A DNA stretch of 64,000 nt from Candidatus Cloacimonadota bacterium (GTDB lineage Bacteria > Cloacimonadota > Cloacimonadia > Cloacimonadales > Cloacimonadaceae): assembly GCA_029567705.1 (NCBI GenBank), contig JAKPXC010000121.1:1-64000 (forward strand). The letters are read 5' to 3'. The position numbers and the translations under genes are program-made. Under the pieces are notes generated by a model that saw nothing but the letters and a program-made list of their open reading frames with translations, had not been told where the DNA came from and did not search any database. Each line of letters starts with the position of its first letter. Positions within the stretch are counted from its first letter, which is position 1. Of the stretch, positions 1,940 to 60,353 are shown in pieces.

Positions 1940-2196
1940 CTATTGTTTCTTGTTCTTCTGGTCGTTTCCCGTACCCATGGTTCGCTCCGCTCACCATGGG
2001 CTATGATACATCACCCCGCTCTGCGGGGTTTCCGGGATTCAGCCAAATCGGAGATTGCCGGGGTCCTCAAAACCTAACAAAGTGAGGTTTTGGGGTTATT
2101 AGGCAGCCCCGGGAGCAGAAGCAACTCTCGTCAATATATGTTACCTGTCCCGCGGATCATGCTTCGATGATAAGCGACAAGATGTCGCTTATAGGC

Positions 2197-2283
2197 TGCC
2201 GACTCTTCGCCGTGTCTTGCAGGACTCTTCCCGAACACTTTGCTCGGGAAGAGTCGGGAAAGAGTCGACGAAGAGTCGGCGAC
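2197..2283 (-). repeat. GACTCTTCCCGA palindrome family, copy A (imperfect arms)
   Basis: GCCGACTCTTCG..GGACTCTTCCCGA-ACACTTTGC-TCGGGAAGAGTCGG..CGAAGAGTCGGCGAC; loop is the reverse complement of the loop in copies B and C. Confidence 0.85.
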
Positions 2284-2348
2284 AAATCAGGAAGAAGGAG
2301 GCAATTCGGAGCTTGCCACCCCAACCCTTATGGGTACAACAGGCTAGC

Positions 2349-44496: not shown

Positions 44497-44810
44497 CCTG
44501 GTTCCTTTTCATTTCAGTTTCTGGTATTGCCTATCGGCCTTGCTTTGGAGAGCCTCTTGTGAGTTATCGTGAGATTTTTTGAGCTCCCGTGGCAATACTT
44601 TGAGATATAATGATTCCTGTCAAGAGGAATGTGAGTTTTTTTTAAGATATTTTGGTGAAGCTGTGGTAAATGTTGAACTGGATTGATGTCAGCCCTCTAT
44701 CTTATTGATTTTCCAGAGATTGCTTATCGGATAAATACCTTTTTCAGGCTGCACTTGGGTTTGGATTTGGTCTCCTGGGTGATTTCTCCATCTACTCCCT
44801 GTCCTAATGG

Positions 44811-44899
44811 GTCGCCGACTCTTCACCGAGTCTTGGCCGACTCTTCCCGAGCAAAGTGTTCGGGAAGAGTCGGCCAAGACTCGGTGAAGAGTCGGCGAC
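44811..44899 (+). repeat. GACTCTTCCCGA palindrome family, copy B (perfect 40-bp arms, 9-nt loop)
   Basis: GTCGCCGACTCTTCACCGAGTCTTGGCCGACTCTTCCCGA - GCAAAGTGT - exact reverse complement. Confidence 0.95.
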
Positions 44900-44979
44900 A
44901 TGAGAGTGAACAGTGATCAGTGAACAGAGCTGCGCTGCTTCGCTCCTCCTTGTGGTATAGGCATCTAAAGGTGGATTAT

Positions 44980-45015
44980 ATGGACTCTATGGACGGAATG
45001 GACAATATGGACAAG
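44980..45015. repeat. 9-bp tandem repeat ATGGACNNN x4
   Basis: ATGGACTCT ATGGACGGA ATGGACAAT ATGGACAAG in phase. Confidence 0.9.
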
Positions 45016-45281
45016 TTATCAGCTGCTTCGCTCTTTGGTGTGGCGAACTCCGATTTGCCACAGAGACCGGAGGTTTCTCCCGAGATTTACGAGGAAATTA
45101 CCAATCCCGGGTATCATAGTAGACTCTGGAAGGGTTTCTGCCAAATCGGAGTTTAGCAGCCCTGCTTATTTTGGAATTCAATCTGGCTATCTAAGTTTCA
45201 CTTATACAATAGACTATTCAGCCAGATTGGACTTCAAACAGTGGGTGCGTCAGCAGGGTGAAAACGCTCTGCTTTGCTTGC

Positions 45282-45356
45282 TGCTGGATGAACTCCAAGA
45301 GGGCATCAGGTTCGGATGTGAAGCTAGAGACAACGAAGCCCTCTTGAACTCCAACG
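45282..45356 (+). repeat. paired-arm hairpin family, copy 1
   Basis: GATGAACTCCAAGAGGGC (45287-45304) / GCCCTCTTGAACTCCAAC (45338-45355); homologous to 60354-60428. Confidence 0.75.
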
Positions 45357-45364
45357 GTAACAGA

Positions 45365-45415
45365 ACTGGTCACTTGTTACTCGTTACTTGTTACTCGTTA
45401 CTTGTTACTGGTCAC
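45365..45415. repeat. 14-bp tandem repeat CTTGTTACTCGTTA
   Basis: Units at 45373 and 45387, partial at 45401; flanked by ACTGGTCAC at both ends. Confidence 0.9.
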
Positions 45416-45418
45416 TTC

Positions 45419-48400
45419 CTACAGATTAACTTCCGCCCAGATGCCTATCCTGAAGATGGTAGTGCCATCATCCATCTTCTTATTTGTAGTCTTCTCAAAG
45501 GAGCCGGTAAGTCCTCCGCGGATGTTGCGGTCAAACTGGTATGTGGCTCCGGGAGTAATGGCAAAGCGGCTGGTGTCGCGATCTACCTGTGTGGCTTCTC
45601 TGCCCTTGGTTTCGTCGAAGCTGCGTTCATAGGCTATCTGTAAGGTAGAGCTCAGCTCATTACTGATATGTATACGCCTGCGGGTGAAGGGAATTGTGAA
45701 GCCCCTTCCTGCCCGGAGAGAATAGGAGAAATTGCTGTTAAAAGTCTGGGTATCTGTGGTTTTCATAATGTCGTAACTTTCCATATCAGTTGTATTAGTG
45801 GAGTGAGATATGGAATAGCTCAGGTTAACGCTGAGAGCATTCATCACGCTGGTGGTAAAGCCCAGCAGCGGATTGAGTGAGGTGGTGAGGGTTTCCTGCT
45901 TGGGACGTTCCCAATTCACATCTCCAGTCTGGCGATTGGTGAGTTGGAAGCCGGAATTGAGCCTCGATCCGGTGAGATAACGGCTCAAGCCAAACCAGCC
46001 GTCAAAGCCCATGAAGGTAAGCGTCAGATCCGGGAAAGTGGTGGAAACAGTCTGATTGCTGGCGTTGGAGTAGCGCTTGTTTATGCTGTATGAATAGCTT
46101 AGCATGCTGTCAAAATTGCGGCCCAGGTTCAATCCCGAGGAAAGCGACAGAGTATTATCATCGCTGGTGGCATCCAGGAAATCCGGAGCTACGCTGTGAG
46201 GTAAGCCAATCTGGAAAGCAAAAGGAGGACGTTCCTCTTTCCTGGTGTAATTCATGGCATAGCTGTTCTGATAGGAAAGATTCAGGTTCTTGAGCTTAGC
46301 CAGATATCCTATTAATAATGAAGGCAAATGCAGGCCGCCGGAACCGGTTCTGCCACTCTCTCCTTCTCTGTGTTCGGCTTCGGGCTCTTCAAAGCGGGGT
46401 TCTTCGCCGGGAAATTCCGGTTCCTTGATCTCTTCGCCAGGCATCAAACCGCCACGGAGACGTTCTTCTTCCCTGCGGCGTTCTTCCTCGCGGAGCCTTT
46501 CCTCTTCCCTGCGGCGTTCTTCTTCCGGATCAGGCTTCAGGTCTTCTTCTTTGATTTCTGGTTCCTGATCTTCCCTTCTTTCTTCCGGAGGGGCTTGAAC
46601 TCCTGTGCTATCCGCTCCCGATTCCGTGTTACGCCGATTCTGCTCCCGCTCCTCCACTCTGCGTCTATGATTCTGCTGCATGTTACGCGCCAGATTACCC
46701 AGGAAATTGGAGTTCTGCAGAGTAAGACTGGCCCGGATGCTTCTCTGATTACCGCCATCGCTTTGATAGTAATCTTCCTGTTGGCCTTCCACGTTCTGAG
46801 TGTATTTCTTCTGGAACTCGGAGAATTTCGTACCCAAAGTAGTGCTGAAAGTCATAATACTGGCCAAATAGTTGGGATTATAGGAAAGCTCCGCATCTTG
46901 TACATATTCGGTTTCCTTACCCAAATTGAGGGATTCCCAATAGTCTTTTTGGAGAAGATCACGCTTGGTGTTGAGCCGTAGTCTGGCACTTAAGTCGCTG
47001 AGCAATGTCCAGTTTATATTGTTGTCTGTGGTTAGAATTCTGCTACTCAGGGTTTGAGCGCGTGGATGCCAACCCAGAACTCCCTCACGAAGCTGCCAGT
47101 CGAAGCTATTGGGCAAGTTGGCATTGAAAGTGAAGCTGTTGTTCCAGGTGGTCGGGAACCATCCAAAACGGTAATTGCGAAAGAGCGGAAAGCTCACTTT
47201 ATCCGGCGAGAAACTGAGGTTGTAGTTGAGGGTTCCACGCCAGGAACGGATGTCGTCCTTGGTGGTGGGAGTGCGTCGGAAGGAATCCTCATAACGGGCA
47301 CTGAAAGATGTGCGGTAAAGAGTGTAAAGCAAGATTTTGTTACTGGGCGCTGTCCGTTGACTGAGAGCAATATCTGCAGCATAGGTCAAACTCTCGTTCA
47401 TCTCCCGCTCTTTTTCTGCTTCATCAGTGATACTATCCCTCAGAAGGTCGGAATTTGCACGGAAGCGAGGTATACCCAGACTGTAGGTCCTGTTGAGGTT
47501 CAACGGCATATCGACACCCCAACTTTGAGGGAAGAACTTGCCCAGGAAATACCTGTTGTTGATAGTGAGACTTCTCAGGCTGGTGAAGGTGTTTGATCTG
47601 CCTCTTTGGATGGTAGGATTGAAGTTCTCGCTTTTATCCTCATAGTCGATATCCAGAGTCATCAAATCTGCCAGCACTGTATTGAGAGAAATCCGTTTGG
47701 CTATACCGATATCCTGATAGGGATCGGAAAGTCGGAGATCGTTGTAATAAATAGTTCCTGAATAGGCTTGGGGATTGGCGATATCCTCAGGATTGGATAT
47801 ACCAAAATAGATCTCACGGATGTTCGTGAGTGTGGGAATCTGGGATGGGCTCCCGGTGTATGATAATGTGTAGGTGCCAAAATCCTGGGAGCCTTGAGTA
47901 GCTTCCGGATCGATCTGTTTGAGAGAGGAGAGCTCCGTCAGTTGATAGACCAGGTCGTTCCAGAGCTCTTCCTGCATCTTTTGCTGCCAATCGTTCACCT
48001 TCACACGTTGCTTGATCTCGTAGTAGCGCAGTGAATCTGCACCTACTCTAAAGATTATATCCAGCGAATCAGGATATGTGCCATGGTTATCCAAAGTTTC
48101 GGGATAGATCCAGAACTTTACATTGTTGTAGGATAACAGATTGTAGGGATCGAAGAGCCTTTGACGCAGCAGGCATTGATCTCCGGGTTGAAGATTTGTC
48201 AGGCTCAGACTCAGGGCGGATTCGTTGGTTTCTCTCCTATCCTCGATGAAGACGGTTCCGGGAGGAGGAGTGTAGTGCATTCTGTTCTTTTGGTTGTTCA
48301 CGATTCCCGAGAGATAGGAAGTGTTGTAGAGTAGGAGATCGGACGGACTGAGAGGGACACCTTCTGAATTCCTGATGTGGAAATCTTCCCATTTGTTTCC

Positions 48401-59735: not shown

Positions 59736-60176
59736 GTATAACAAAATACAAGATGTTCTAAACGTTGTCAAGATATATTTACTGAATTATATTCATTTTT
59801 TACACCGTTGCAGAGCAAGATTTGGCTAGTCTGATTCTGCAAGCATCAGTGGTAGGGCATTTGAAGCCTAGTGTGCCTGACCCGGATAGTGGATTTTTAT
59901 AATTACTTTATTTTCACTACGATACCTGCAGCAGAATTGATCATAGATGAGAAAACAATCGGGTTCCAATCCATCTGCATTGTTCGCTGGTTTCATCCTC
60001 ATTACTCCCTTAAGTGTCAGTGTCGGGTCAAGTCGTATTGAGGTTTCACGCATGAGACACCCATGTAGATTCATGCGTGTCTCATGGGTTTCAGATGCGT
60101 TTTCAATGGGAGTGTGTTAAACCATTGTTTGAAACCATCAATTCAGTCCACTCATGTATCTCCTAATCCTAATGGA

Positions 60177-60265
60177 TCGCCGACTCTTCACCGACTCTTG
60201 GCCGACTCTTCCCGAGCAAAGTGTTCGGGAAGAGTCCTGCAAGACACGGTGAAGACTCCGGGAGA
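60177..60265 (+). repeat. GACTCTTCCCGA palindrome family, copy C (imperfect arms)
   Basis: TCGCCGACTCTTCACCGACTCTTGGCCGACTCTTCCCGA-GCAAAGTGT-TCGGGAAGAGTCCTGCAAGACACGGTGAAGACTCCGGGA. Confidence 0.88.
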
Positions 60266-60353
60266 AGTAAGTAAGACTCTGGATTCGGCGTAGCGGAGGA
60301 TTCCGATCCTCCGGATTATGTGAGGTAGCTTCAGAAAGCTACGCTACGCCTCG

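Follow-up and report, generated by a model that had tools for sequence, protein, structure and literature searches.

The window studied here, a stretch of 64,000 nucleotides from the genome of a Candidatus Cloacimonadota bacterium, raises the question what a long palindrome in the gap upstream of mraZ represents, and whether its perfection calls for a special explanation. Recomputing the reverse complementarity confirmed the structure given in the initial annotation: positions 44811-44850 pair as reverse complements with 44860-44899 without a mismatch (40/40 pairs) around GCAAAGTGT, and closing the loop to 3 nt extends the arms to 43 nt at 98%. Folded as RNA, the palindrome reaches -101.5 kcal/mol, compared to -45.8 +/- 4.0 for dinucleotide shuffles (z = -14). 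No hairpin of similar stem length was found elsewhere in the window except two other copies of the same family. The palindrome is intergenic, lying between mraZ and the 3' end of an ORF of 2061 aa (Table 1), and inspection of 44811-44915 revealed no T-run after it, so the combination of GC hairpin and T-run that marks an intrinsic terminator is absent. Its earlier description as neither coding nor a terminator was borne out. The arms consist of the units GCCGACTCTTC ACCGAGTCTTG GCCGACTCTTC; repeats had been noticed there before, while the unit is 11 nt, slightly longer than the 9 nt named at the time. In fact, the 89-bp palindrome is the symmetric centre of an intergenic repeat of about 105 bp.

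Table 1. Positions of the focal repeat and its modules, of the two further family copies and of the neighboring genes within the window.
Feature	Positions	Strand	Remarks
Focal element, ~105-bp frame U4-U1-U2-U3-core-U3'-U2'-U1'-U4'	44803..44907	+	core on + strand GCAAAGTG
Outer module U4 CCTAATGGGTC	44803..44813	+	loosely conserved, co-inheritance with centre unreliable
Module U1 GCCGACTCTTC	44814..44824	+	
Module U2 ACCGAGTCTTG	44825..44835	+	
Module U3 (GCCGACTCTTC)	44836..44846	+	rarer GCC allele, in both arms
Core CCGAGCAAAGTGTTCGG	44847..44863	+	near invariant across the genome-wide family; asymmetric centre GCAAAGTG
Right arm: U3' GAAGAGTCGGC, U2' CAAGACTCGGT, U1' GAAGAGTCGGC, U4' GACATGAGAGT	44864..44907	+	
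Second family copy	2187..2291	-	imperfect palindrome, convergent gap
Third family copy	60168..60272	+	imperfect palindrome, divergent gap
mraZ, 146 aa	44056..44496	-	downstream neighbor of the element (context)
ORF of 2061 aa	45419..51604	-	upstream neighbor, 3' end towards the element (context)

A high-copy family with modular arms

The window belongs to a fragmented draft genome of 2.48 Mb in 210 contigs (G000). Copies of the repeat were located therein by BLAST and a covariance model, then retrieved and aligned. At least 105 distinct, scattered copies were obtained, three of them inside the window, and this number is a lower bound as 150 of 684 candidates were scored. All 105 align in a single frame without gaps, consisting of U4, the three 11-nt modules U1, U2 and U3, the 17-nt core CCGAGCAAAGTGTTCGG and the mirror image. 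Thus a near-invariant, asymmetric core is flanked on each arm by three 11-nt modules and a looser fourth. The set of modules is small: U1 reads GCC, CCG or CCC followed by GA(C/G)TCTTC, U2 is (A/G)CCG(A/T)GTCTTG or GTCGACTCTTG, and U3 is CAG or GCC followed by GACTCTTC. Information content peaks at the dyad and drops outward, both in G000 and in the sister species G001, and the ends fade without a sharp tip. The outer modules keep their consensus, yet their inheritance is not reliably linked to that of the centre, and modules are reassorted between copies. From these results we conclude that the palindrome of the window belongs to a species-specific family of palindromic repeats interspersed in high copy number.

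Other repeats occupy the same intergenic DNA. Degenerate low-complexity repeats (GTGAACAGTGATCAGTGAACAG, GTTACTCGTTACTTG, GAGCTGCGCTGCTGACGC) fill intergenic DNA of G000 and often adjoin palindromes, for example at 44900-45430 of the window, in the L060 gap and in many further intergenic gaps. Beside the focal element, the inverted pair AACTCCGATTTGCCA / TGCCAAATCGGAGTT (45046-45060 / 45139-45153) apparently belongs to another dispersed repeat.

The initial annotation had taken the perfection of the arms as a sign of recent insertion, correction between arms or selection. Recent copying is supported by the data given below. However, perfection requires no special cause, since the majority of copies show mismatches between their arms, and full pairing over the 33 nt of the three modules occurs in 9 of 105 (2.2 expected under random arm pairing). 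Within a copy the arms differ at a mean of 5.5 of the 33 module positions, compared to 4.8 for randomly paired arms; they show no overall covariation, and the inner module anti-covaries. Some allele pairs are nearly missing: U3 GCC/GCC occurs in 2/105 copies (10 expected) and U2 GAC/GAC in none (4.3 expected), and the same U3 deficit is present in the sister species (1/42 compared to 6.8 expected). The simplest reading is that an allele had a single origin in one of the arms and was then propagated in this one-sided form. Selection for bulges was considered as a cause of the excess of mismatched inner modules in both species and rejected, because a one-arm origin followed by copying suffices without it; the allele-pair counts are no proof of selection. 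For some alleles the phase is kept, with U1 CCG and U4 CTC found 27 times in cis and 2 times in trans, and U1 CCG and U2 GAC 2 times in cis and 17 times in trans. The core in contrast takes either orientation almost at random with respect to the arm alleles, which suggests inversion within the palindrome. Since the core is found in either orientation, the inner part of the palindrome probably inverts, and template switching or recombination between the arms would be plausible routes. Core orientation showed no relation to local GC skew (40/75).

Placement and spacing along the chromosome

Based on gene calls from a simple hexamer predictor built for this analysis, only 2/105 copies in G000 and 0/42 in G001 overlap a predicted ORF, and copies lie closer to the 3' ends of genes. 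Among the G001 gaps of at least 100 bp, 14/31 convergent, 18/119 tandem and 6/47 divergent gaps are occupied; the difference between convergent and divergent gaps (P = 0.003) is driven mostly by contig C2. In tandem gaps of G000 the core orientation is not biased with respect to transcription (17 vs 21).

Copies also keep their distance. The minimum spacing is 4.8 kb in G000 (34 within-contig intervals) and 5.1 kb in G001, the latter with P = 1e-4 against uniform placement and P = 0.001 against the real gaps. For the best 40 copies of G011, a third species introduced below, it amounts to 10.5 kb (P = 4e-4). Whether the sites themselves are conserved was addressed by comparing G000 and G001. 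On contig C2, site positions appeared to be shared (7/26 vs 3/73, P = 0.003), while no such signal was obtained outside C2 (2/12 vs 10/59), and all sampled contigs together gave 9/38 vs 13/132 (P = 0.05). Because the signal of C2 failed on the other sampled contigs, we do not claim conserved positions; most sites differ between the sister species. Synteny breakpoints were not associated with elements either (8/32 syntenic compared to 4/12 for other large gaps).

One design in unlike sequences among Cloacimonadaceae

The sequence of the window's family was detected in none of 36 relatives, comprising two genomes of the same genus and 34 of the same family. The absence from related genomes, which the initial annotation had named as a refuting outcome, is thus formally found at the level of sequence. 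However, this does not speak against a real element, as the relatives possess the same architecture in other sequence. The sister species G001 has a family of its own, with units such as GCATATCACCA, GCAGATCAAGA and GCAAATCAAGT around CGAACnnnGTTCG, at a density of 26 copies per 440 contiguous kb. G011, which we take to be Candidatus Cloacimonas acidaminovorans Evry, is a single contig of 2,246,820 bp and contains a third family, built from CATTGCTTACC units and present in at least 40 copies; the sequence of this family is missing from three congeners of G011.

A blind scan of the relatives, in which palindromic arms of 11-nt periodicity were sought, added cases of the same design in G002, G009 and G025; those in G005 and G007 were weaker. 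Shuffled DNA gave no matches, and periods other than 11 nt gave few. When 22-40 kb were scanned in each of five genomes that represent other families of the order, only one marginal match was obtained, and a weak match in G059 turned out not to be an element. In G000, G011, G025 and G009, the outer ends tend to resemble TTCCT...AGGAA. The helical phase of the constant blocks is only partly similar between species, and strict conservation is not claimed. Several Cloacimonadaceae carry a class of repeats with a common design and unlike sequence. An element of the species' own family is also located upstream of mraZ in G002 (L125, ~820-960) and G011 (L245, 905100-905181); given the large gap there, its presence at this site in three species may be due to chance.

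The relatives contain further repeats of other kinds. On contig C2 of G001, another intergenic family is dispersed that consists of 11-nt units in direct orientation (GCAGGATACAA, GCAGGATTCAA, GCAGGATAGAA); it is non-palindromic, has a minimum spacing of ~6 kb and is found for example at C2 positions 49803, 83198, 146532, 282844 and 425044. A further dispersed k-mer family of G001 was set aside, as it is coding (YPNPFNP-type motif). Positions 1-240000 of G011 comprise clustered multi-copy repeats of a different kind around CCAGATAAGTGACC and GCAGATTAGTCA, ~2 kb apart. At the G011 loci L235, L237, L241 and L248, both flanks outside the palindrome are common to the four copies, suggesting a larger repeated unit in which it is contained.

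Mobile palindrome or chromosome site

How did such repeats arise? Near-identical copies (0-2 differences over the central 83 bp) occur in unrelated flanks, with identity lost within the outer module, and have therefore spread by copying. Furthermore, two element-bearing gaps of 722 and 706 bp in G000 measure 54 and 12 bp between the orthologous genes of G001, although other repeats fill much of these G000 gaps. Together with the unrelated flanks, these short gaps indicate that copies were gained. The best supported reading, to which we give about even odds (probability roughly 0.5), is that the repeat is a non-autonomous, copy-type mobile palindrome that is read in trans through its 11-bp modules and spaced by an immunity-like effect. 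A trans-acting protein would recognize either the hairpin or the row of 11-bp sites, each corresponding to one helical turn, and the spacing might reflect immunity exerted by resident copies, or else selection against close copies. Several observations count against mobility. Flanking direct repeats, as would be expected for a target-site duplication, were not clearly more frequent than in re-paired flanks at any offset or length. Empty copies of the palindromic target TTCCTAAT...ATTAGGAA are not in excess, for which reason insertion into such a pre-existing site was rejected. No autonomous partner or mobilizer was identified, and conservation fades outward. Solo arms were not found within the 64-kb window. 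No counterpart was obtained from viral contigs, from collections of phages and plasmids or from genomes of other species, beyond one match in an Oscillospiraceae MAG, which proved to be a plain short hairpin.

The main rival, a tentative one, is that the repeats are chromosome-organizing sites. Helically phased 11-bp sites flanking a dyad would bind a conserved but fast-evolving nucleoid, condensin-type or topology-related protein and, at intervals of about 13-16 kb, mark domains. If protein and sites coevolve, the same geometry would result in different letters. This fits the 11-nt period and dyad design common to unrelated sequences, the minimum spacing in three species, the enrichment in convergent gaps of G001 and the elements upstream of mraZ. 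The complete change of sequence between congeners, the lack of the G011 family in three of its congeners and site positions that are weakly conserved at best speak against it, as does the gain of copies where the sister species has short gaps. This reading accounts for the spacing and the common design, but not for the turnover of sites. One might speculate, with somewhat more reserve, that the dyad-symmetric 11-bp site arrays, repeated every ~10-16 kb throughout the family, are platforms for a protein coevolving fast with its sites, a bacterial parallel of fast-evolving centromere or recombination-hotspot motifs. It is rather unlikely that the palindromes are old, fixed sites homogenized from the centre outward, in which the dyad breaks during replication and is repaired from another copy; new variants would then sweep existing sites. 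The smooth fall of conservation away from the dyad, the consensus-like outer modules not reliably co-inherited with the centre and the reassortment of modules would be accounted for, whereas the few sites shared by the sister species and the gaps nearly absent from one of them would not.

Two readings taken from better known hairpins appear less plausible. REPINs consist of two conserved terminal REPs, inverted around a less conserved spacer (PMC3116915). Like REPs and REPINs, the repeats are high-copy, extragenic, hairpin-forming and species-specific, and lie mainly downstream of genes in convergent or tandem gaps (PMC3733652, PMC3116915). In G000, a copy is located within ~1.5 kb of three of the six matches to Y1_Tnp, one of which has an in-frame stop. 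However, conservation here peaks at the dyad centre, the arms are built from 11-nt modules, copies are at least ~5 kb apart and no RAYT is consistently associated, whereas REPINs have an adjoining one. The copy-rich G001 has a single partial Y1 match, and two of the three matches in G011 carry stops. The three bases before U1 vary as well (GTC, CTC, GCT, GTT and others in G000, TCTACA/TCTAAA-type in G001), and no fixed GTAG/CGTC tag was found. Mobilization by a RAYT, a Y1 tyrosine transposase, is therefore improbable. We give a slim chance to an RNA element, such as a bidirectional terminator or an RNase III-type hairpin, for which the very stable stem, the proximity to gene 3' ends and the frequent occupation of convergent gaps would argue. 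Yet the T-run is absent, divergent gaps are occupied too, the core is not oriented with transcription in tandem gaps and the arms show no overall covariation, with anti-covariation at the inner module. No Rfam family matched the window at gathering score, and the best sub-threshold matches were unrelated microRNA hairpins. An artefact of assembly could be suspected from the fragmented draft and the many copies near contig ends. Since each copy has distinct flanks and the same design recurs in other sequence in relatives, including the better-assembled G001 and G011, it is very unlikely, to the point of being negligible.

Other known repeats resemble the family in part. ERIC/IRU and similar long imperfect-palindrome repeats are likewise intergenic, ~100-130 bp in size and free of an internal transposase, while to our knowledge they lack 11-nt modular arms, unrelated sequences of one geometry and a described minimum spacing. 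MITEs of DDE transposons are short non-autonomous palindromes that spread by copying, and some transposons display target immunity; in contrast, neither a target-site duplication nor a sharp end or parent transposon was found here. The parS, Noc and BIME/gyrase sites are palindromic or repeated and scattered chromosome-wide as well, but their sequences are conserved between related species, whereas each species examined here has its own. A literature search, with most subscription papers outside it, did not turn up any account of repeats of this kind from Cloacimonadota.

Taken together, the results point to a class of DNA elements, either mobile or chromosome-organizing, for which we know of no description. 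Interspersed palindromic repeats are common, but unrelated sequences that share one geometry, with 11-nt modules on a dyad and a minimum spacing of several kb, within one bacterial family are unusual. This poses a testable question: are these selfish, self-avoiding hairpins, or functional sites of the chromosome that turn over in concert? Under either reading, a protein that reads the 11-bp modules should exist.
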